Below are positions 11,266 through 22,047 of a DNA stretch of 28,913 nt, piece by piece. The DNA comes from a virus. The DNA lies in the IMG/VR virus record IMGVR_UViG_3300035196_000304, positions 1-28,913 of that record, one strand, 5' to 3'. Position 1 is the stretch's first letter. Each line of letters starts with the position of its first letter. The position numbers and the translations under genes were made by a program. A model generated the notes under the pieces. The model was not told the origin of the DNA, did no database searches, and saw nothing but the letters and a program-made list of their open reading frames with translations.

Positions 11266-11733
11266 ATGCGCCTACCGACCGTCACGCTCCGCCATCCGAC
11301 GCGCGGCATCATGAAAGTCAACGCTTACGACTTCGGCCAGGATATCCGCGGCTATGGGTCGAAGGGCTGGAAACTGGCGACGGAGAGACGTGGCGACGCG
11401 CCGGATGACGTCGTCCTGGACGCCGGCCGCGAGGCGAAGATCCAGCAACACCGCGCGAGCCATCCGGTCATGCAAAAGACACTTGGCGATGCGGACCGGA
11501 TGATGGAGGAGCGGCGGATCAAGCGCGAAATCACGACCGAGGCCCCTGAGCCGGCGCCTGACCCGGCCCCCGAGCCGGCACCGGACGAAGATGCCGCGCC
11601 GGCGGTGGACCCGGACTGGGAGTCGAAGCCCTGGTTCGAACGCCGGGCCTACGTGAAGAAGATCACCGGCACCGATCCGAGCAACGCCCTGCACGCCAAG
11701 GAACTGATGGCCGCCCTACAGAAAGCCGACTGA
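11266..11733 (+). CDS. Hypothetical head-associated protein with Pro/Asp linker
   Basis: This 155-residue protein starts after GAGGTGA. The N-terminal part includes MKVNAYDFGQDIRGYG, the middle is helical and charged, residues about 88-112 are a (PEPAPD)-type linker, and the C-terminal 40 residues (WFERRAYVKKITGTDPSNAL...) form a small helical domain resembling the LEM/HeH-like tails of proteins encoded next to coat genes. A role in head completion or decoration is plausible from position. The stop overlaps the glycosyltransferase start (TGATG), tying the sugar gene to the head operon. Confidence 0.6.
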   Translation: MRLPTVTLRHPTRGIMKVNAYDFGQDIRGYGSKGWKLATERRGDAPDDVVLDAGREAKIQQHRASHPVMQKTLGDADRMMEERRIKREITTEAPEPAPDPAPEPAPDEDAAPAVDPDWESKPWFERRAYVKKITGTDPSNALHAKELMAALQKAD

Positions 11734-13592
11734 TGAAATTCTCCGCCCCACTGGGCCTGCTCCCCACGCTGGCCGAAAACGAGCTTTGCATCTTCGTCGG
11801 CTGCGACGCCCGCTATGCGCGGACCTACGCGGGGCCGCTGGTCCGCAGCATCGACCGGAACTCGCCGCACCGGCCAGTCCATCTGCACATCGTCAACCCC
11901 GATGACCGGCTGGAGACCGAACTCTCGACCCTGGCCTCGGAGCGGTCCGGCGCGGCCCTGACCTGGACGACGGAACAGACCGATTTTGGCGAACTGAACG
12001 CCGCCGCCCGGACGGTCTACTACGCCTGCGTCCGGTTCATCCGCGCTTTCCAGGTCATGAGCGCGGTGCCGGCGCCGTATCTGGTCCTGGACGCGGATTC
12101 GATCGTCCGCGATCATATCGTGGTGCCGGACGATTGCGACGCGGGGCTGTATCTGAGACCCGAGAATCCCGACCACATGAAGATCGCCGCCGGCGCGGTG
12201 CTGCTCTGCCCGACCAAGGCCGGGATGGCATTCGCGGCCACCGTGGCCAAGGCACTTGCCGAGCGTCTGCCGAAAGCGATGAAAACCGTCGGCTGGTTCC
12301 TGGACCAGATGGTGATCGAGCGGGCGCGCGAGACCGCGGCGGCACACGGGGCCCGGATCCACGATTTCAGCCAGGATCGGCTGCTCGATTGGGAATTCCG
12401 CCCAGATACCCAGATCTGGACCGGCAAGGGGCCGCGCAAGCACGGCAACAGCACATTCGGGGTCGAGGCGAAGCGATACGCCGCCGGGCCCGGCATCTGG
12501 GGGCCGGCGGAGCCCGAGGGGCAGCGCGTCCTGATCCTGCGGCCGTTCATGGACCTGCCGTTCAAACGGCCGCCCCTGGGGCAGCGCCGGTGCCTGGACG
12601 CGCAGACGGTCGCGCTGCGGTTCTACTGGTCTAGGATGGCCGACACGCTCCAGGCGGCGTTTCTGGCCCGTGGACACGATGCGGTGATCCTTGAGCGGCC
12701 CATGTGGGAGTTCACGCCCGAGATGGTGAACGCCCACCGGCCCGATCTGGTCCTGGTGCCGCACAAGCGCGCGGCCCAGTTCGCCGGTCTCGCCTGCCCG
12801 GCCATGTACTACATGCAGATGTACGCGCGGCATCTGTTCACGGTCGACCAGAAGGGCTGGGGCGGGGGCGCGGCCCGGTATCCGGCGGATTTCACGACCG
12901 GCGATCCGCGCTCCGATGCATGGGATCGGCTGTTCGAAGCCGCGACCGGCAATGCGAGCAAGTTCGACCAGCCGGCCCATCGGGACATCGAGGCCCTGCA
13001 GGATGACGGCAGCCTGCCGCGCGGGCCGTTCATCTTCTTCCCGTGCCAGATCCCGCATGACGAGACGATCCTGTTTGATTCCGATGTGACCGAGATCGTC
13101 GCCGTGGCCGGCTTGGCGGCCTGGGCGAACGATCGGCAAGTCCATGTCGTGTTCAAGGAGCATCCGGTCAACCGGGCCAGCATGGGGCCGTTGCGGGAGG
13201 CGGCGCCGGCCTCGGAATTCGTCCACTGGATCGACGCCGGCAACGACGCAAGCGTGCATGACCTGATCCGGTACGCCAAGGCCGTCTATACGATCAACTC
13301 CGGGGTCGGGTTCGAGGCCATCGTGCATGGCAAGCCAGTGGCTGCGTTCGGACGATCGGCTTATGACGCGGTCGCGCTCAATGCGCCGCCCGCGCCCGCG
13401 TTCGACCTTGACGGACTCTGGCAAACAGTCCAGGGGAGCGGCCACTTGGCCGAAGGCCGCTATCGGAAGTTCATCGACTGGTTCGTGCGCGACTATGCGG
13501 TCGATCTCGACGACAAAGCCCGGCTCGGCCCCCGGATGGATCGGCTGCTCGGCCAGGCCGAACGGCTGATGAGCCAGCGGGCGGCGGCATGA
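11733..13592 (+). CDS. Two-domain glycosyltransferase: GT-A domain fused to capsule Kdo-transferase-like (KpsC/KpsS) domain
   Basis: This protein is 619 residues. The N-terminal ~245 residues open with IFVGCDARYARTYAG and hold the metal-binding DxD motif as DAD at 120-122 within YLVLDADSIV, typical of GT-A nucleotide-sugar transferases. The C-terminal ~370 residues match the capsule-synthesis (KpsC/KpsS, PF05159-type) pattern: FIFFPCQIPHDETILF, then FKEHP at 474-478, then TINSGVGFEAIVHGKPVAAF from about 520. In bacteria that family adds beta-Kdo to the lipid anchor of group 2 capsules. The fusion inside a phage head operon is unusual. Likely roles are virion glycosylation or host surface-glycan change. 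The start is coupled to the gene before it. Donor and acceptor are unknown. Confidence 0.82.
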   Translation: MKFSAPLGLLPTLAENELCIFVGCDARYARTYAGPLVRSIDRNSPHRPVHLHIVNPDDRLETELSTLASERSGAALTWTTEQTDFGELNAAARTVYYACVRFIRAFQVMSAVPAPYLVLDADSIVRDHIVVPDDCDAGLYLRPENPDHMKIAAGAVLLCPTKAGMAFAATVAKALAERLPKAMKTVGWFLDQMVIERARETAAAHGARIHDFSQDRLLDWEFRPDTQIWTGKGPRKHGNSTFGVEAKRYAAGPGIWGPAEPEGQRVLILRPFMDLPFKRPPLGQRRCLDAQTVALRFYWSRMADTLQAAFLARGHDAVILERPMWEFTPEMVNAHRPDLVLVPHKRAAQFAGLACPAMYYMQMYARHLFTVDQKGWGGGAARYPADFTTGDPRSDAWDRLFEAATGNASKFDQPAHRDIEALQDDGSLPRGPFIFFPCQIPHDETILFDSDVTEIVAVAGLAAWANDRQVHVVFKEHPVNRASMGPLREAAPASEFVHWIDAGNDASVHDLIRYAKAVYTINSGVGFEAIVHGKPVAAFGRSAYDAVALNAPPAPAFDLDGLWQTVQGSGHLAEGRYRKFIDWFVRDYAVDLDDKARLGPRMDRLLGQAERLMSQRAAA

Positions 13593-13720
13593 CGCTGCGT
13601 GAACTGAAGCAGCGCGCGCGATATCCGGATACCGCGATCCCGTTGCAACTCTACGCAGTAGGCGTCTGTGCCGTGACGCTATTGTCCTGGCACTTGGCCA
13701 CGCGGATGTTCGGGACATGA
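13589..13720 (+). CDS. 43-residue single-span membrane protein between glycosyltransferases
   Basis: The frame opens at ATG 13589 inside an ATGA overlap with the glycosyltransferase stop and closes at TGA 13718-13720, overlapping the next gene's ATG 13717. The product has a basic N-terminus (RELKQRARYP) and a hydrophobic stretch at about residues 17-38 (LQLYAVGVCAVTLLSWHL), so one membrane span is likely with the N-terminus in the cytoplasm. Double coupling argues that it is real. It may anchor the neighbouring sugar enzymes at the membrane; that is a guess. Confidence 0.55.
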   Translation: MTLRELKQRARYPDTAIPLQLYAVGVCAVTLLSWHLATRMFGT

Positions 13721-14595
13721 TCGACCGCGCCGAAGCCTTCCACGACGACACCCTGGGGACGGACGAAACCGACTGGTCCCCTCAACCGAAAGCCCCAACC
13801 ATGAACCCGCCCCTGCGCATCTTCATCGGCTTCGACCCCCGCCAGGCCGTCGCGTACAACGTGCTGGCCATGTCGATCATCGAACACGCCAGCGTCCCGG
13901 TGCAGATCTCCCCGCTGGTGATCCAGCAGTTGCCGATCGCGAGGCAGGGCCTGACCCCGTTCACCTGGACGCGATTCCTGGTCCCGTGGCTCTGCGGCTT
14001 CGAGGGCGAGGCGCTGTTCGTCGATGCCGACATGCTGTTCCTGGCCGACCCGGCGGAGTTGTTCGACCACGCGCGGATCGAGGCGATGGGCAAATATGCC
14101 GCCGGCCATCAAGGTGACGCCGTGGCGGTGCGCGAGGATCCCGACGGCCACAAGTTCGAACGCGCCGCCCTGATCTGGTTCAACTGCGCCCATCCGGACA
14201 ACCGGGTCCTGACACCCGAATATATCGAGGAAGAGAAGCCCGGCCGCGCCCTGCATTGGATCGACTGGACCAAGAACATCGCCCGCATCCCGGACGAATG
14301 GGGCCATCTGGTCGGCTACAACGCGCCCCGGGCAGCGGGCAACCATGCCAAGCTGGCCCATTACACGCAGGGCATCCCGGTCTTTCCGGAGACCTGGGAA
14401 TGCGAATATGCGGCCGAATGGCAGCGGATCTTCGCCGCCACGATGATCCCGGCGGCGGCGCAGCAGATCCAGATCGACCCGAACGCCTGGACCGCCCTCA
14501 TGGGCGGCAGCGTCCACGCCAAGCGGCTGCCGAGCGGGCGCATGGTGCCGAAGTTCTGGCAGGAGACTGAAATCGAACCGGCGGTCCCGGCCTGA
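13717..14595 (+). CDS. GT-A-type glycosyltransferase
   Basis: This protein is 292 residues from ATG 13717. The fold begins at RIFIGFDPRQAVAYNVLAMS (residue 32 on), with the DxD motif as DAD at 103-105 (FVDADMLFL). The later parts LIWFNCAHP, HWIDWTKN and WGHLVGYN fit a GT8-like or related nucleotide-diphospho-sugar transferase. ATG 13801 would give a start right at the fold and is a serious alternative; 13717 is favoured by the ATGA overlap with the membrane miniprotein. It probably works with the adjacent two-domain transferase on the same glycan. Sugar specificity cannot be read. Confidence 0.8.
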   Translation: MIDRAEAFHDDTLGTDETDWSPQPKAPTMNPPLRIFIGFDPRQAVAYNVLAMSIIEHASVPVQISPLVIQQLPIARQGLTPFTWTRFLVPWLCGFEGEALFVDADMLFLADPAELFDHARIEAMGKYAAGHQGDAVAVREDPDGHKFERAALIWFNCAHPDNRVLTPEYIEEEKPGRALHWIDWTKNIARIPDEWGHLVGYNAPRAAGNHAKLAHYTQGIPVFPETWECEYAAEWQRIFAATMIPAAAQQIQIDPNAWTALMGGSVHAKRLPSGRMVPKFWQETEIEPAVPA

Positions 14596-14597
14596 TC

Positions 14598-15020
14598 ATG
14601 GGGGACATGATCGACGGGTTTCTGGATTCGGACGGCTGGGGCACGCTTACCGATGAACTGCGCCGGATATTCATCGCCAACGGCTGCGACCCCGCCTGTC
14701 ATATATGCGATAGCGGGATTAAGGTCGACGAGCGTTTCCACCTGAAGCCGTTCTATCATGGCCCTGGCTCCGTCGAGGGCGAAGACACGACGGTTCAGGT
14801 CATGATCTGCGCCACCTGCTCCCGCACGAATCGCAAGTTGCCGCGCAATGAGGCGAAAAGGGTTCTGCAATCGGCGATCGGATCTGATGCTGACCTGGAC
14901 GCTCACAAGCTGTCGCGCACTGTGATGCCGCCGCCCAAGCCGAGGCCGACGACACTGGGCGACTATGGCAATTATCAGCGGGGCGGGTGCTTTCTGGTCA
15001 ATGGCAAGATTGATGCTTGA
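14598..15020 (+). CDS. Hypothetical Cys-containing protein
   Basis: This 140-residue protein has CHICDSGIKVDERFHLKPFY near residues 35-54 and MICATCSRTNRKLPRNEAKR near 74-93. The two CxxC pairs 40 residues apart suggest a treble-clef or HNH-like zinc scaffold, but I do not see a full HNH catalytic set. The start is ATG 14598, two bases after the glycosyltransferase stop; ATG 14607 is possible. Function is not recognised. Confidence 0.55.
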   Translation: MGDMIDGFLDSDGWGTLTDELRRIFIANGCDPACHICDSGIKVDERFHLKPFYHGPGSVEGEDTTVQVMICATCSRTNRKLPRNEAKRVLQSAIGSDADLDAHKLSRTVMPPPKPRPTTLGDYGNYQRGGCFLVNGKIDA

Positions 15021-15153
15021 CCGCAATCCCGCCGTTTGCCCGGCCACCAAATCCGGCGGCATCGGCTGCACCACGCGCAACGCCTGCCGGGTCCTGGCGT
15101 GCTGCCTCAAGACCGCCGCAGCGTGTACCAGTGATGACGCCCCAACACGATGA
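15013..15153 (+). CDS. Possible Cys-rich miniprotein
   Basis: This 46-residue frame overlaps the preceding gene by eight bases and contains six Cys residues, including CRVLACC. It ends eleven bases before the next gene. No ribosome site of its own is clear, so it would rely on coupling. It may be a real small protein or a chance frame; overlap and compact packing slightly favour real. Confidence 0.35.
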   Translation: MLDRNPAVCPATKSGGIGCTTRNACRVLACCLKTAAACTSDDAPTR

Positions 15154-15164
15154 GGAGCAGTCCC

Positions 15165-15494
15165 ATGGCCGAACGATTTGTAGATATTTTCACTCTTCTT
15201 GGCGACCGCATCGATTACAAGAGGGTCAGTCCGTGTGGTCTGCGGAACATGTTTGTCAATCTGACGAGTATTTATGCGGTTTTTTCCATGACTGCGGATG
15301 AAGGGCCGTCTGTCCAGATCAAGTCCGTCGGCGGGCCCATGGGCTTCCCCATGGTATCGGCCGAGGCGGCCGACGTTGCGGCGAAGATGGTCGTCAGCGT
15401 CGTACAGATGGCGGCTGACGGTCCGATGGAGGAAGTCGAAGGCGTCATGCGCCGTGTGCTCAAGGAAGCGGCAGAAGAAAACGCAGGCGCCTGA
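15165..15494 (+). CDS. Hypothetical protein
   Basis: This 109-residue protein starts after GAGGAG with seven-base spacing. The first 45 codons are clearly AT-richer than the neighbours, while the C-terminal half returns to local composition. The sequence holds a hydrophobic helix-prone centre (VAAKMVVSVVQMAADG) and an acidic C-terminus. There is no recognisable family. It lies between zinc-type miniproteins and the methyltransferase pair. Confidence 0.55.
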   Translation: MAERFVDIFTLLGDRIDYKRVSPCGLRNMFVNLTSIYAVFSMTADEGPSVQIKSVGGPMGFPMVSAEAADVAAKMVVSVVQMAADGPMEEVEGVMRRVLKEAAEENAGA

Positions 15495-15507
15495 TCGGCC
15501 GGCGCGG

Positions 15508-16065
15508 ATGACGCCCGAACACGGCCCTGAAATCGCCTTCCTGGCCAATCTCGCCAAGGCCGAGGGCGTCCGGTCCTTCCTGGAGATCGGCGCCCGGAGC
15601 GGGGTGAGCTTCGGCCGCATCGCCGAGGCGCTGGATAGCCCCTCCAAGGTCGTGGCGGTCGACCTCCCAGGCGGCCCGTGGGGCAGCCCAGATACCGATC
15701 GGTCACTGCGCGACACCGCTGGACGGCTGACCACCAAGGGCCATGATGTCGACCTGGTGCTGGGCGACAGCCGCGATCCGGGCATCGTCGCGCAGGTCGA
15801 ACGATCGATGCCGTTCGATCTGCTCTACATCGACGCCGACCACGCCTATGAGAGCGTCAAGGCCGATTGGGAGAACTATGGCCCGATGGCCGCAATGGTG
15901 GCGTTCGACGACATCTGGAGCCGAGACCGGGACATCGGCGGCGGCGCGGTCCTCGCCTGCGGCGTTCCGCGGCTGTGGCGGGAGATCCGCCAAGGTCACC
16001 GATATCTGGAGATCGCCGGGACCGAGAACCGCACCCATGGGATAGGGCTGATATGGCAGTCGTAG
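15508..16065 (+). CDS. Class I SAM-dependent methyltransferase
   Basis: This 185-residue protein has the SAM-binding motif FLEIGARSGVS starting at residue 24, VVAVDLPGG as motif II and LLYIDADHAYESVKADW from about 105, where the DADH acids resemble those of Methyltransf_24-type enzymes often found in sugar and O-antigen clusters. No target-recognition domain for DNA is present, so glycan or small-molecule methylation is more likely than DNA methylation. It overlaps the next methyltransferase by 13 bases. The substrate is unknown. Confidence 0.8.
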   Translation: MTPEHGPEIAFLANLAKAEGVRSFLEIGARSGVSFGRIAEALDSPSKVVAVDLPGGPWGSPDTDRSLRDTAGRLTTKGHDVDLVLGDSRDPGIVAQVERSMPFDLLYIDADHAYESVKADWENYGPMAAMVAFDDIWSRDRDIGGGAVLACGVPRLWREIRQGHRYLEIAGTENRTHGIGLIWQS

Positions 16066-16649
16066 AGGGCCGCCAATGGGCGCCCACGGTGGCCGAAATC
16101 CGGCCCGATCATGTCAACCGCTACCGCTGGGCGGCCGAATGGCTGAAGGGGCATTTCGAAGCCCCCCGAGTCCTCGATGCCGCCTGTGGGATCGGGTACG
16201 GGTCCGCCATCCTGGCCCGGGCCGGATGCCGGGTCGACGGGATCGACGTGTCGCAACGCGCGCTGGATTACGCCGCCGAGCACTACCCCCACGAGCGCAC
16301 CCGGTATCTGCACTCGGATGTCCTGCAGCACCGGGGCGCCTATGACGCCGTGGTGAGCTTCGAAACCCTGGAGCATGTGGCCGACGCGCAACTGGTGCTG
16401 GAACGGTTCGCCGGCCAGGCGCCGTGGCTGCTGGTCTCGGTGCCGAACGAAACGGTGCTGCCGTTCGATCCTGGACGGCATCAGCACCACCGGCGCCACT
16501 ACACGACGGACGATCTGCGCGGCGCGCTCGGGATGGCCGGCTACGGGCTAGACGGGCTCTTCACCCAGATCGGCAAGACCGGGCCGGTGGAACCGGGACA
16601 GCACGGCCAGACCTTGATCGCGGTCGCGGCTCGGGCGATTTTCAGATAG
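16053..16649 (+). CDS. Class I SAM-dependent methyltransferase (Methyltransf_11/23-like)
   Basis: This 198-residue protein has motif I VLDAACGIGYG at residues 40-50, an acidic loop in GIDVSQRAL, and ETLEHV in the post-motif region that marks the UbiE/Methyltransf_11 superfamily. HQHHRRHYTTDDL is typical of glycan-cluster members, where a His-rich loop is followed by the 'F/YT.D.L' element. With the adjacent methyltransferase and two glycosyltransferases it looks like part of a glycan-modifying set. The start at ATG 16053 lies inside the preceding gene. Confidence 0.8.
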   Translation: MAVVEGRQWAPTVAEIRPDHVNRYRWAAEWLKGHFEAPRVLDAACGIGYGSAILARAGCRVDGIDVSQRALDYAAEHYPHERTRYLHSDVLQHRGAYDAVVSFETLEHVADAQLVLERFAGQAPWLLVSVPNETVLPFDPGRHQHHRRHYTTDDLRGALGMAGYGLDGLFTQIGKTGPVEPGQHGQTLIAVAARAIFR

Positions 16650-16657
16650 GAGGCGTT

Positions 16658-17272
16658 ATGAGGCTCTTGGTCGGTTTTCTTCTCACACTGTTCGTGGTCT
16701 TGCCGGTCACGCCAGCAAGCGCGGCGGTCGACTGCGCGGTGACGCCGCTGCAATGCCGTTGTGTCACCGCGGTCTTTCACCGACCGTGGCTGTCGCCGAC
16801 CAATAACGCCGACATGCAGGCGGTGACGGTCCGGTGGCAGAATGTCGAGAGACTCGGCAACCGGCAGATTGCCAGGGCGAACGGTCAGCGGAAGCTCACC
16901 GCCGCGTTCTATATCTGGTTCGACACCTTCGGCAATCTGGCTTCGACGACTTTCAATCCGGAAGATAGCCGGATAGGGCTGCGGTTCATTTCTCCCACCG
17001 GCTCGGAACCGCGCGACATGCTGTTTTATGGCGTCTGGTCGCTCGGGGCCAATCGATCCCAGGATAGCGGTTCGCGGAACTGGCTCGTCGCCCCGCTGGA
17101 CGATACCGAGGGCGAGACCGCGCCGTTCGATCTTGAATCCGGCACCTTGTCGCAATCCGTGAACGTGGGCACGACAACGGTTCTGTTCGGGGTGGCGACC
17201 GATGCCCTCCGTCTTCGGGGCGACGAGTTGTTCGACAGCGTCGAGACCGATCTGCTTGCAAACGGCTGTTGA
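16658..17272 (+). CDS. Secreted protein of unknown function
   Basis: This 204-residue protein has a Sec signal peptide at residues 1-22 (MRLLVGFLLTLFVVLP, then an ASA cleavage site) and a mature N-terminus with three Cys (DCAVTPLQCRC). The rest is beta-rich. TAGGAGG four bases before ATG is the best ribosome site in the region and suggests strong expression. Tailed-phage virion proteins rarely carry signal peptides, so it may be a host-envelope protein such as a superinfection-exclusion or receptor-masking factor, or a lipoprotein-like inhibitor; no lipobox is seen. Function is inferred only from export. Confidence 0.65.
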   Translation: MRLLVGFLLTLFVVLPVTPASAAVDCAVTPLQCRCVTAVFHRPWLSPTNNADMQAVTVRWQNVERLGNRQIARANGQRKLTAAFYIWFDTFGNLASTTFNPEDSRIGLRFISPTGSEPRDMLFYGVWSLGANRSQDSGSRNWLVAPLDDTEGETAPFDLESGTLSQSVNVGTTTVLFGVATDALRLRGDELFDSVETDLLANGC

Positions 17273-17297: not shown

Positions 17298-17987
17298 ATG
17301 GCTTGGCAGGCTGTTTACGACGATCTTCAGGTCTACTCCTCGGAGACCACGGATCATCGTGATCTACCAGTAGACGGCCTGCAGGCGCTGACCGTCGACG
17401 GGAAGCTGCACATCGGGACGTTGGACTGCTGCGGCTTCGCGCAGGTGGATGGCAAGGAGGCCGTCCTCGTCCCGCGCCCGACCGCGACCCACCGGGACAT
17501 GCGCGCGCTATATCCCGATGCGGTGATCGTCCGGAGCAAGACCATTTCGACCCGGCAGTTCCACAAGGTCGAGGTGATGACCGGCCTGTGGAGTCCGATG
17601 AACCCGATTCCCCACGAAGGCTGGATGAAGGATGTCGTCGGCTGGCGCCTGTGGACCGAGACCGAGGTGTTCGATTCCGTCGGCGTGGCCGAGGCCGATT
17701 GGCCGGCGCACTGGGAGTCGCTTCCCGGCGCGGGCATCCAGGGCCTGATCCTTTACGAAAACTGGCAGTATCCGAAGGGCTACGACTGCCAGCAGGTCGT
17801 CTATGGCAAGGATCGCTATGCCTTGGCGCCGTCGCCATATGGGCCGGTTTTCCTAAACACGAACGCGCCGATCGCCGAAATCGAGCAACGCCATCCGGGG
17901 GCGGCGGTGAAGACCGGCTCCCGCCTCCCAGATGATGTCTTCTGGCCGCTGCACGGCCGGTTCACCGGCACGAACACGTTCAGATGA
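17298..17987 (+). CDS. Hypothetical Trp-rich protein
   Basis: This 229-residue protein starts after AGAGG. It contains many Trp and Pro residues (GLWSPMNPIPHEGWMKDVVG, WQYPKGYDCQQ) and a predicted beta-rich globular fold, with no signal peptide and no recognisable family. It overlaps the HGHxAD gene by four bases (ATGA), so it is co-translated with it and could be its chaperone, attachment or capping partner. That link is inference from coupling. Confidence 0.6.
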   Translation: MAWQAVYDDLQVYSSETTDHRDLPVDGLQALTVDGKLHIGTLDCCGFAQVDGKEAVLVPRPTATHRDMRALYPDAVIVRSKTISTRQFHKVEVMTGLWSPMNPIPHEGWMKDVVGWRLWTETEVFDSVGVAEADWPAHWESLPGAGIQGLILYENWQYPKGYDCQQVVYGKDRYALAPSPYGPVFLNTNAPIAEIEQRHPGAAVKTGSRLPDDVFWPLHGRFTGTNTFR

Positions 17988-19621
17988 CCGATTTCACCCA
18001 GACCGACACCGCGGCCGGGACATGCGGCACCGGGAATTTCTGCACCGGCAACTCGACGGTCGGAGATACGACCATCCTGTTCCAGGCGTCGGAAGGCGCC
18101 ACCCCAGGCGCGGGCAACCAGACCTATGGCGTCGTCGGCAGCGCCGACCAGCACGATACGATCTTCTTCGAGATCATCGACGGCGACACCAACCTGGAAG
18201 ATCTGACCGACGTCACCGGCAACTGGACGTTCCGGATGGACGTCAACCAGTCCAACATGAACCTGACCTGGACCGGCGCCGCCGCCTGCCGGGTCAACTC
18301 CTCCTGCGTCAACCAGGAGACGATTTGCAACGACCAGACGATCTCCGTCGGCCTCAACTCCACCGGCATCAAGACCCAGACCGTCAACCAGGCGTCCGCC
18401 ATCACCATGGGCGCGACGGACCTGATCATCGCGGTCTATGCGATCGACAACGCCGACAGCATGACCCAGACGGGTCGGATGGTGGCGGACCAGAACATCT
18501 CCAACCAGTGGACGGGTGGCGCTCAAACGCTCGTCGCCTTGGACGCAACCCACGGGCATACCGCCGACGCCACTGCGTTCATCGAAGCCAAGACCCTCGC
18601 GGTAGACGACGCCACCCATGGCCACACGGCGGATAACACCACCCTTGCCGAAGGTGCGCCACTCGATATCGACGACGCAACCCACGGTCACACCGCCGAC
18701 GTTGCCACTTTCACGATCACGCTTTTCCCCGCCGACTCCACCCATGGCCATGCGGCGGATCCAACGGCGTTCATCGAGGCGAAAACCCTAGCGGTCGATG
18801 AGGCGACCCATGGTCACGCGGCTGACAACACGACCCTCATATCGGGCATTCCGATCGTTGTTCAGGATGCCACCCATGGCCACACGGCCGACCAGACCTC
18901 TTTCATCGAAGCAAAGACGCTTGCGGTTGACGACGCCACCCATGGCCACACGGCGGACGCGGCCGGGTTCGTTCTAACACTTGCCCCGGCCGACGCGACG
19001 CACGGCCACAGCGCGGATAACGCGGCCCTGGCTATCAGCCTTGCGCCGGCTGACGCAACGCACGGCCACGCGGCGGACAATGCCGGGCTCGATCAAGCCC
19101 ATCTGCTCGCGGTCGCGGAAACCCTCCACGGCCACACGGCCGACAACGCCACCCTGTCCGAGGGCGGGGTCATCAACCTTGTGGTCGCGGACGCGACCCA
19201 TGGGCACACCGCCGACAGCCCGGCCCTGGTCCTCGATCTGACCGCGGAGGATGCAACCCATGGCCATACCGCGGATCAGGCCGGGTTCACGATCAGCTTG
19301 GCGCCGGACGATGCGGTCCACGGACACACGGCGGACAGCTCCGATCTGCTGCACACGCTGTCGCCGACGGGTGCAACTCACGGCCATACGGCCGACGCCG
19401 CGACGTTTACCGAAATCAGGGTCGCGGCCCCGGCCGACGCGCTTCATGGCCACACGGCGGACGAAGCGACCTTGGCGCAGATCCATGCGTTGGTGGTCGC
19501 CAATGCGACCCATGGCCACTTGGCCGACAACGCGACCTTCACATCATCCGGCGCCACGATCGGCCCTGCCCGAACCATCATCGTCGCCGCCCAGGATCGC
19601 GTCATTATCGTGAACCCATAG
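17984..19621 (+). CDS. Putative virion fibre/appendage protein with 16 HGHxAD repeats
   Basis: This protein is 545 residues. Residues 1-186 form a Cys-containing beta-rich domain (GTCGTGNFCTGNSTVGD..., RVNSSCVNQETICND) that may be the attachment or trimerisation head. From residue 187 to about 522 come 16 repeats whose core is (D/E)ATHGHTAD, with His-Gly-His-x-Ala-Asp invariant in all 16. Repeat lengths are only 20, 22 or 24 residues. Repeats 1, 4 and 6 also share FIEAKTLAVD. A short hydrophobic tail follows. His-x-His sites coordinate iron in some trimeric phage fibres such as T4 gp37, so metal-stabilised stacking is plausible. Similar 'DATH.HTAD' repeats occur in environmental phages as far as I recall, without known function. 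Confidence 0.75.
   Translation: MTDFTQTDTAAGTCGTGNFCTGNSTVGDTTILFQASEGATPGAGNQTYGVVGSADQHDTIFFEIIDGDTNLEDLTDVTGNWTFRMDVNQSNMNLTWTGAAACRVNSSCVNQETICNDQTISVGLNSTGIKTQTVNQASAITMGATDLIIAVYAIDNADSMTQTGRMVADQNISNQWTGGAQTLVALDATHGHTADATAFIEAKTLAVDDATHGHTADNTTLAEGAPLDIDDATHGHTADVATFTITLFPADSTHGHAADPTAFIEAKTLAVDEATHGHAADNTTLISGIPIVVQDATHGHTADQTSFIEAKTLAVDDATHGHTADAAGFVLTLAPADATHGHSADNAALAISLAPADATHGHAADNAGLDQAHLLAVAETLHGHTADNATLSEGGVINLVVADATHGHTADSPALVLDLTAEDATHGHTADQAGFTISLAPDDAVHGHTADSSDLLHTLSPTGATHGHTADAATFTEIRVAAPADALHGHTADEATLAQIHALVVANATHGHLADNATFTSSGATIGPARTIIVAAQDRVIIVNP
18542..19550 (+). repeat. Tandem coding repeats, 16 units of 60-72 bp
   Basis: Units are centred on a sequence close to GACGCCACCCATGGCCACAC. 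The core is highly conserved at DNA level while the spacer between cores diverges, with unit lengths of 60, 66 or 72 bp. Units 1, 4 and 6 share a longer block coding FIEAKTLAVD, which suggests past segmental duplication. The array would allow copy-number change by slippage or recombination. Confidence 0.9.
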
Positions 19622-20307: not shown

Positions 20308-21105
20308 ATGGCCACCACGACCGTCCGGCAGGACAAGGACGCCAACGCCAAGCTGGACTATCTGTTCAGCTGGGAGGCGTTCGTCGACCCCGATGCCGAC
20401 AGCATCGCATCGGCCACGGTGTCTTGCCCATCCGGGCTGGCCTGCACCGGAACCGCGATCACGGCATCGACAGTCCGGGTGTTCGTATCGGGCGGGGCCG
20501 AGGGCCGGACCTACGATATCGTCAACCGGGTCTTCACCACCGGCGGCCGGACCGAGGACAAGGTCCTTCAACTCACCATCGTCCAGGTGCCGTCGGCGAC
20601 GCAATCGATCGTGGTCGAGACCGGGTCGGCGAGCCCGACCAGCAATTCCTACGCCTCGGTCGCGGACGGCAATGCCTATCACGCCAGCCACCTCTATGCT
20701 TCGGCTTGGCACCAGGCCAACGACGCGCAGAAGGAAAAGGCGCTCATCTGGGCTACGCGCCTGATCGACGAGAACGTCGAATGGACCGGGTTCCAATCCC
20801 AGGACGGCCAGGCCCTGCAGTGGCCCAGGCATGGAGCTGGCGACCGCGGCGGGTTCGTGATCGACAGCAACGAGATCCCCAGGGCTTTAAAGGATGCGAC
20901 GGCCGAGATGGCGCGGCTGATGCTGGGCGAGGATCGGACGGCGGAGGACGACACGCGCGGGTTCTCGATGATCAAGGCCGGCTCGGTGACGGTCAATATC
21001 GACAAGTCGGACCGCACGGATATCATCCCCAAGACCGTCGCGCGGATGGTTTCGCCGTTCGGGCGCGCGTTGTCGGCGGGGCAGCTGAAGTTGATCCGGG
21101 CCTAG
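20308..21105 (+). CDS. Head-tail connector: fibre-tail-adaptor-like domain fused to DnaT-like domain
   Basis: This 265-residue protein has two parts. Residues 1-95 (LDYLFSWEAFVDPDADSIAS..., VRVFVSGGAEGRTYDIVNRV) match the small beta-sandwich usually called phage fibre-tail adaptor. Residues 105-225 (NSYASVADGNAYHASHLYAS, KEKALIWATRLIDENVEW, GFQSQDGQALQWPR, IPRALKDATAEMARLML) match the phage 'DnaT-like' family, which in this context is a helical head-tail connector. In many phages these are separate genes; here they are one. Its stop overlaps a convergent minus-strand stop at a shared CTAG. Confidence 0.75.
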   Translation: MATTTVRQDKDANAKLDYLFSWEAFVDPDADSIASATVSCPSGLACTGTAITASTVRVFVSGGAEGRTYDIVNRVFTTGGRTEDKVLQLTIVQVPSATQSIVVETGSASPTSNSYASVADGNAYHASHLYASAWHQANDAQKEKALIWATRLIDENVEWTGFQSQDGQALQWPRHGAGDRGGFVIDSNEIPRALKDATAEMARLMLGEDRTAEDDTRGFSMIKAGSVTVNIDKSDRTDIIPKTVARMVSPFGRALSAGQLKLIRA

Positions 21106-21548
21106 TCGCACCAGCCCTGCCGCTGACCGCCATCATAGGGTCGCCCCAGCCCGTGGTGGGCCAGCAGGTCCGCTAGGTCGATCCCGTCCACCTCGACCCG
21201 GGCCACCACTCGGCCCCCGTACCGGCCCCATTGCGGATCACAGAACCGGACATCCGAGGCGGCCGAAAGCCGCTCGATCACGAAATCGCGGGCCTGGAGG
21301 GCAAGGGTCCGCTCGGCCTCGCAACGCCCTCTGATCTCGGGCGTATCGATGCCGGCCAACCGGACCGCCATTCGGGCGATCTCATCGGCCAGGCCCGGCA
21401 TCGCGATGTAGACCGTATCGCCATCGTAGGCGAGCCGCCCGCCCGGTCCCTCTCTGAGGGGCCAGGAATAGCATCCAGCCTCCGCAGCCCCAGCGAGGAA
21501 CAGCATGACGATCATCTGCGCGATCAGCGATGGAACACGAACGATCAT
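21102..21548 (-). CDS. Secreted Staphylococcal-nuclease-like (thermonuclease family) protein
   Basis: This minus-strand protein is 148 residues from ATG 21548. A signal peptide covers about residues 1-24 (MIVMLFLAGAAEAG from residue 12). The SNase fold motifs follow: DGDT at 42-45, RLAGIDTPE with Arg 63, Asp 68, Thr 69 and Glu 71, and YGGRVVARV with Arg 113, then LADLLAHHGLGRPY. All catalytic positions of the family are present, so an active calcium-dependent nuclease exported to the periplasm is expected. Starts at 21587, 21515 and 21506 are possible. It reads against the tail operon and its 5' end overlaps the HslV-like gene. It may degrade incoming DNA of rivals or host debris; this is inference. 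Confidence 0.82.
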   Translation of the reverse strand: MIVRVPSLIAQMIVMLFLAGAAEAGCYSWPLREGPGGRLAYDGDTVYIAMPGLADEIARMAVRLAGIDTPEIRGRCEAERTLALQARDFVIERLSAASDVRFCDPQWGRYGGRVVARVEVDGIDLADLLAHHGLGRPYDGGQRQGWCD

Positions 21549-22047
21549 TGGCAGCGATACTCTCGCGGTTTCGACCAACGGCGACAAAAGCTATACGGGA
21601 CCGAAGTGGGTATTGGCAGGCCCGTGGGCCATTGGGATTGCGGGACCGCTCTATTACCACCGTGTGGTCCAAGCACATCGTGAGGATGTGGCGGGACGGC
21701 TCAATTCCGCGGATGAGCCGTCATGGGGGTTGGCTGTTGCTCTGGCCGCGTTGTTCAAGGAACACGAGTGTAAGCCTCGCGGCGATGACTACGGGGCACT
21801 GTTTTGGGGCGGCTGGTTCATGCTTGCCGATGCAAAACGGATCTGGACGTTTGACAGCACGCTTTCGTCGGTCCAGGCGCCAACCGGCACCCTGGCGGCC
21901 GAAGGATCGGGCTGCGACTTTGCCAAAGGCGTCGCTTTCGCCGTGAAGCACGAGCCGGCGGACCGTCAGGTCGAGACGGCCATCAAGGCTGCGATGGAAT
22001 TCGACAACGGTTGCGGCGGCGAGGTCTGGACCCACGAACTGAGGTAG
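21505..22047 (+). CDS. Proteasome/HslV-like Ntn-hydrolase (putative threonine peptidase)
   Basis: The protein is 180 residues and aligns by eye with HslV and 20S beta subunits. Thr 2 follows the initiator Met (MTIICAISDG), as in HslV where removing Met frees the catalytic N-terminal Thr. GSD with Asp 18 matches HslV GD17, Lys 28 or 34 could be the catalytic Lys, and GSGCDFAKGVAFAV (134-147) matches the GSG...A helix, followed by a helical AIKAAMEFD. Length fits HslV (~175). No HslU-type ATPase is in the window. GAGGA five bases upstream supports ATG 21505. It may mature head or tail proteins or act on host proteins; activity is not shown. Confidence 0.72.
   Translation: MTIICAISDGTRTIIGSDTLAVSTNGDKSYTGPKWVLAGPWAIGIAGPLYYHRVVQAHREDVAGRLNSADEPSWGLAVALAALFKEHECKPRGDDYGALFWGGWFMLADAKRIWTFDSTLSSVQAPTGTLAAEGSGCDFAKGVAFAVKHEPADRQVETAIKAAMEFDNGCGGEVWTHELR

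Follow-up and report, generated by a model that had tools for sequence, protein, structure and literature searches.

The window, that is, the whole stretch of DNA analysed here, is a viral contig of 28,913 bases that represents a fragment of a genome. It belongs to a phage carrying a long-tail module (gene order in Table 1), and the gene of interest, coding for a protein made largely of repeats, lies downstream of the coat protein gene and upstream of the connector genes (Ad1, Hc1, and tail terminator). The ORF immediately upstream and the repeat gene share 4 nt (ATGA), the stop of the former and the start of the latter, which suggests their coupled translation. The interval that separates the coat and repeat genes contains, at 11733-16065, the PF05159 protein, the probable glycosyltransferase, and the PF13578 protein, possibly a cassette modifying glycans of the virion or of the host. 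In the same interval, the ORF at 16424-17272 has an internal start near residue 79 that would give its product an N-terminus resembling a signal peptide (MRLLVGFLLTLFVVLPVTPASA), with a Cys-containing segment after it.

Table 1 Genes and protein regions of the window (a single number is the start coordinate)
Feature	Position	Strand	Remarks
Terminase large subunit	531	+	
Portal	2120	+	
Mu F-like head morphogenesis	3547	+	
Scaffold	8938	+	
P22-type coat protein	10055	+	
Capsule-synthesis-like protein	11733	+	PF05159
Probable glycosyltransferase	13717	+	Our reading of the sequence
Methyltransferase, O-methyltransferase-like	15298	+	PF13578
229-aa ORF	17298..17987	+	No homolog found
Repeat protein (likely fibre-like), 545 aa	17984..19621	+	
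N-terminal domain, aa 1-182	17984..18529	+	Contains Cys; no relative found
16 repeat units of 20/22/24 aa, aa 183-525	18530..19558	+	HGHxAD cores
C-terminal tail, aa 526-545	19559..19618	+	IGPARTIIVAAQDRVIIVNP
Companion protein, 130 aa	19680..20072	+	Most relatives of the repeat gene have a homolog nearby
89-aa ORF		+	Between the companion ORF (19680) and the Gp77 fusion (20308)
Gp77 domain (phage GP4 fibre-tail adaptor, cf. 8jou_D) fused to DnaT_2 / head-tail adaptor Ad1	20308..21105	+	
HslV-family peptidase-like	21505..22047	+	phrog_1040; among connector genes
Head closure Hc1	22234	+	
Tail terminator	23006	+	
Tail tube	23450	+	
Tail chaperone	24661	+	

The HGHxAD cores of the repeat protein start at residues 190, 212, 234, 254, 276, 298, 320, 340, 360, 382, 406, 426, 446, 466, 488, and 510 (n = 16, against 0.003 expected from composition), and a His-x-His (HxH) pair is present in all 16 units. 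The 15 core-to-core steps (22, 22, 20, 22, 22, 22, 20, 20, 22, 24, 20, 20, 20, 22, and 22 residues) are all even, so that an earlier note on this DNA, which had described 16 cores at steps of 20, 22, or 24 residues, was accurate for this protein. Eight of these 15 steps equal 22, the usual step of the family presented below, and the proper statement is that the others depart from it by two. The variation is confined to the stretch between two anchors, position +9 of a core and residue -7 of the next one, which measures 3, 5, or 7 residues. When units were compared in pairs, the codons of the conserved core residues agreed in 100% of cases at positions 1 and 2 and in only 51% at position 3, and Tandem Repeats Finder detected no tandem DNA array over the repeats. 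The motif has therefore been held at the protein level and does not result from recent duplication alone.

Searches with the complete protein retrieved no family above cut-off in Pfam (none at E 0.1, the Curlin repeat PF07012 included), PHROGs, or NCBIfam, the latter yielding a single chance match far below its cut-off. Likewise, no relatives of the N-terminal domain were found in viral contigs and a literature search on HGHTAD produced no paper.

A repeat family and its companion gene

Judged from its sequence, the repeat protein belongs to a large, unnamed, and widespread family of phage repeats with a period of 22 residues, known mainly from uncultured phages: it has the 22-residue consensus, and its gene adjoins the companion gene. 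Numbered from the first His (position 0), this consensus reads L(-7) x V/I(-5) x D(-3) A(-2) x H(0) x H(2) x A(4) D(5) N(6) V/L(7) x L(9) T Q x H(13) x L(15), with clearly alternating conserved hydrophobic residues. A DNA pattern search retrieved at least 119 stretches of viral contigs with two HxHxAD cores 22 residues apart, and Microcystis phage Mae-JY22 was the sole match among 50,697 records of catalogued phages. Genome contigs, in which an earlier scan found no repeat arrays, gave mostly single chance matches and real arrays in five contigs, including one of Parazoarcus communis DSM 12120. At this locus (L268), the repeat protein adjoins a homolog of head closure Hc3, probably within a prophage of a named strain. 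Antisense ORFs with apparent periodicity at two loci (L014 and L024) were left out.

The set selected on HxH, scored with a matrix blind to both His, comprised 94 nonredundant proteins and 1022 units. The first His was present in 98.7% of these units, the second in 88.8%, and the complete pair in 87.7%, with HxQ in 7%; Gln is the main substitute for the second His in HxH-type arrays. The repeat units share about 50–64% identity. Most steps in the family (804 of 889) measure 22 residues, followed by those of 24 (45), 25 (13), 20 (11), 23 (6), 21 (5), and 26 (5). The exclusively even spacing described in the earlier note does not extend to the relatives, where steps of 21, 23, and 25 occur and odd lengths account for 24 of the 85 departures from 22 (the other 61 being even), as well as for 6 of the 37 departures in the companion-selected arrays described below. 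Even departures are a real preference of the family, and no rule.

The N-terminal domains of the relatives vary (e.g., LamG in L032, a weak DUF5123 match in L001, and others), and strands of the type R-x-[LIV]-x-V recur at the C-termini of many of them. The larger neighbours of the family repeat genes have their matches among terminase, portal, major head protein, head closure, and adaptor families. The companion, a family of proteins of ~125 amino acids, has homologs at 80 of the 108 HxH loci fetched (74 by profile), often at no more than 50 nt from the repeat gene, at 44 of 62 loci with Ser-x-Ser (SxS) repeats, and in 14 of 16 whole records tested. Only two of the 50,697 phage records contain it, those of Mae-JY22 and Octadecabacter Antarctic DB virus 2. 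Among 40 members of the companion family that we scanned, four matched phrog_240 'head protein' (E to 2.9e-9) and five matched phrog_3758 'virion structural protein', and a profile search of the PDB retrieved nothing. The variable N-terminal domains, the head and connector setting, and the companion make a modular head- or neck-associated fibre the best reading of these genes, with gene order and the minority of companion proteins matching PHROGs pointing to the head or neck. At another locus, a companion homolog lies beside a gene (L366:8675-10363, + strand) for a protein of propeller-like, 41-residue repeats (TWTTRTSGTTNALYGVTYSSADDLFVAVG).

Replacement of the His pair

Since the first collection had been picked on HxH, we also chose 80 loci by the companion alone, which gave 43 nonredundant arrays with 401 units (His-blind matrix). 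HxH occupied 69% of these units, if anything an overestimate because the matrix was trained on HxH-type units, and nine of the 43 arrays did not contain any HxH. In place of the pair, and in the same register, there were arrays of QxQ at four loci (L323, L324, L384, and L386), arrays of IxI, IxV, IxT, and IxL at two (L360 and L363), one of LxT, LxI, and MxT at L389, and others of HxT, HxS, HxQ, and QxT at L355 and L361. Direct reading of the sequences confirmed the register, for example for QxQ (L384, LVVQDITQSQTIDNILLTQHNSL) and for IxI/IxV (L360, LVVADAAIAIAADNIVVTQEHML). Some apparently 'mixed' HxH/TxT arrays were rejected, as they reflected a half-unit offset of the search pattern.

The QxQ, IxI/IxV, and LxT arrays indicate that the repeat fold can do without His and that the site takes amide and aliphatic side chains; the presence of Ile at both pair positions in L360 argues for a buried site. 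The most economical reading would be an inward, core-facing position for stacking, ladder formation, or packing that accepts His, Gln, or Ile, and metal binding by the HxH arrays would be possible without being required by the fold. The earlier note had named beforehand the loss of the His pair in homologues, or odd spacing there, as what would refute a metal-stacked fibre. Both occur in relatives, with arrays that have the same repeat and companion gene and no His pair and, since close relatives carry Gln or Ile instead of His, stacked metal ions cannot be the general purpose of the repeat.

A second large group of 22-residue phage repeats (L131-L192), in which Ser/Pro replace His (LTADNVESASEVTAPAIGQVHA), often lies beside the same companion gene. 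These SxS repeats (LTADNVESASEVTAPAIGQVH; e.g., gp11 of Octadecabacter Antarctic DB virus 2) resemble the HxH family in period, Q-x-H-x-L register, and companion gene, but differ from it by the Ser/Pro in place of His and by a profile homology that is weak after masking the pattern-selected columns: hhalign gave Prob 91.7 for the full comparison and a value in the upper tail of permuted controls for the masked one. Given their register and companion gene, both groups are likely related. Two additional companion-linked arrays on the + strand (L364 and L374), composed of Asn/Ser-rich 22-residue units (LLVNHLANSNLLTTADLIQANT), are possibly another version of the HxH repeat.

Predicted fold and possible roles

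The AlphaFold2 (AF2) monomer of the window protein was all beta, with a mean pLDDT of 52.6, values of 75–79 at residues 401–470, and mostly <50 in the N-terminal domain. For a regular relative (L122), the monomer reached a mean pLDDT of 71 and a pTM of 0.62, with three strands per 22-residue coil. This second model aligned to right-handed beta-helices with Z of about 18–21 (RbmB: Z 21.1 over 255 residues, rmsd 2.8), whereas Foldseek gave it no PDB match better than E 0.01, with low TM-scores; neither model had a significant Foldseek match. AF2 yields confident but false beta-solenoids for perfect repeats, and agreed with other methods for solenoid families with diverged repeats (PMC11795689). 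A beta-solenoid fold is plausible from these models, and a fibre-like beta repeat is likely.

We consider as the best explanation (probability of about 0.55) that the protein is a modular virion appendage of the head or neck, a fibre with a beta stalk of ~22-residue units in which the pair site is first of all a packing or ladder position. Such a fibre would comprise the variable N-terminal domain, the long and rigid stalk, and a short C-terminal beta tail. Within a unit, the long strand V-x-L-T-Q-x-H-x-L-x-V would lead through a turn at D-A to a short strand that bears the pair, A-x-H-x-H-x-A, and then to a turn at D-N. The pair would face the stalk interior and may stack on, or pack against, its counterparts in adjacent units or chains. 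His-x-His would be the commonest filling of the site, with Gln-x-Gln, Ile-x-Ile/Val, Leu-x-Thr, and probably Ser-x-Ser as equivalents, and the HxH arrays might in addition catch metal. Of the fibre proposed in the earlier note, we thus retain a tailed-phage protein with beta-rich repeats that change length mostly by two residues and with a gene lying among structural ones, and find the metal stack unsupported as an explanation of why the repeat exists.

The parallel with the HxH iron sites of T4 gp37 on which that proposal was built is real as a motif and extends to R-pyocin fibres. Crystallography has revealed iron sites made of six His, contributed by the HxH of three chains, in R1/R2 pyocin fibres, T4 gp37, P2 gpV, and phi92 spikes (PMC6116203), and the gp37 histidines are essential, their change to Ala abolishing plaques (PMC6957217). 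As in the T4 gp37 needle and the R1/R2 pyocin shaft (PDB 2XGF and relatives), HxH pairs would here be part of a beta-rich virion fibre; unlike them, the protein has a regular 22-residue repeat and relatives that swap both His for Gln or Ile. One could imagine a homotrimer with three chains around a common axis and, at each HxH ring, an octahedral six-His site for Fe, Zn, or Ni like that of gp37, amounting to up to 16 sites per trimer. This would agree with the pair being present in every unit of the window, with even steps, which maintain strand facing, and with the replacement of His by Ile, which fits an axis position. However, we regard such a trimer as unlikely. The retention of both His expected of a gp37-type site fails among the homologs, in which entire QxQ, IxV, and LxT arrays keep the register and the companion gene and the second His is less conserved than the first (89% vs 99%), although an octahedral site uses both equally. 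Moreover, odd steps exist in relatives, and phmmer and profile searches of the PDB with the repeat produced no relevant match and no solved HxH fibre. HxH also recurs every 22 residues in a phage fibre, gp12 of Alteromonas phage R22Y, for which iron was proposed from docking to a prediction (PMC11705849). This protein shares the pair and its spacing with the family but has the consensus HxHxIxDIxGLxxxL instead of A-x-HxHxADNVxLTQ; with an equal period, a different consensus, and no DIxGLxxxL after HxH in the family, we rejected it as a homolog.

The head or neck appendage could take the concrete form of a monomeric right-handed beta-helix with 22 residues per coil and metal-free, stacked rows of His, possibly pH-responsive. 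Right-handed parallel beta-helix and beta-solenoid proteins (tailspikes, RbmB, and also curli repeats) have coils of 22 residues, a usual length, with stacked identical residues, and the L122 model aligns to them; furthermore, the array-wide like-for-like filling of the site (all HxH, all QxQ, or all Ile) is what a ladder would be expected to show, and the divergence among units is that of the class for which AF2 agreed with other methods. Nevertheless, the protein matches no beta-helix family in sequence, the L122 model may be an artefact given the known bias of AF2 and the low Foldseek significance, and duplication can also explain array homogeneity. Phage fibres are mostly trimers, which also argues against a monomer, and we propose this form only tentatively. 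More doubtful is that the protein is a tail fibre or tail-tip protein instead of a head or neck appendage. The Gp77 fibre-tail adaptor domain encoded downstream, also found near 13 of the 108 relative loci, and the Octadecabacter virus companion gene, which adjoins genes annotated as tail tubular protein and tailspike, would favour a tail location; by contrast, head and connector families dominate the neighbour tally and some of the companion proteins match PHROGs of head proteins.

The lasting find is a repeat family, so far without a name, that comes together with a companion gene and occurs naturally with His, Gln, Ile, or perhaps Ser in the pair. This family is frequent in uncultured phages, nearly absent from catalogued records, and absent from the domain libraries searched, and the companion gene serves to mark it. 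Its HxH, QxQ, and IxI versions offer a comparison set to distinguish whether HxH in phage fibres is there for metal or for packing, and claims about the iron that phages carry in the sea depend on the answer. It is conceivable, if rather improbable, that a general phage stalk, existing in hydrophobic (IxI), amide (QxQ), and HxH versions, is specialised for metal loading in the HxH arrays, where a row of at least 16 closely spaced metal ions would run along the fibre; if true, these phages would possess a switchable or iron-carrying appendage.
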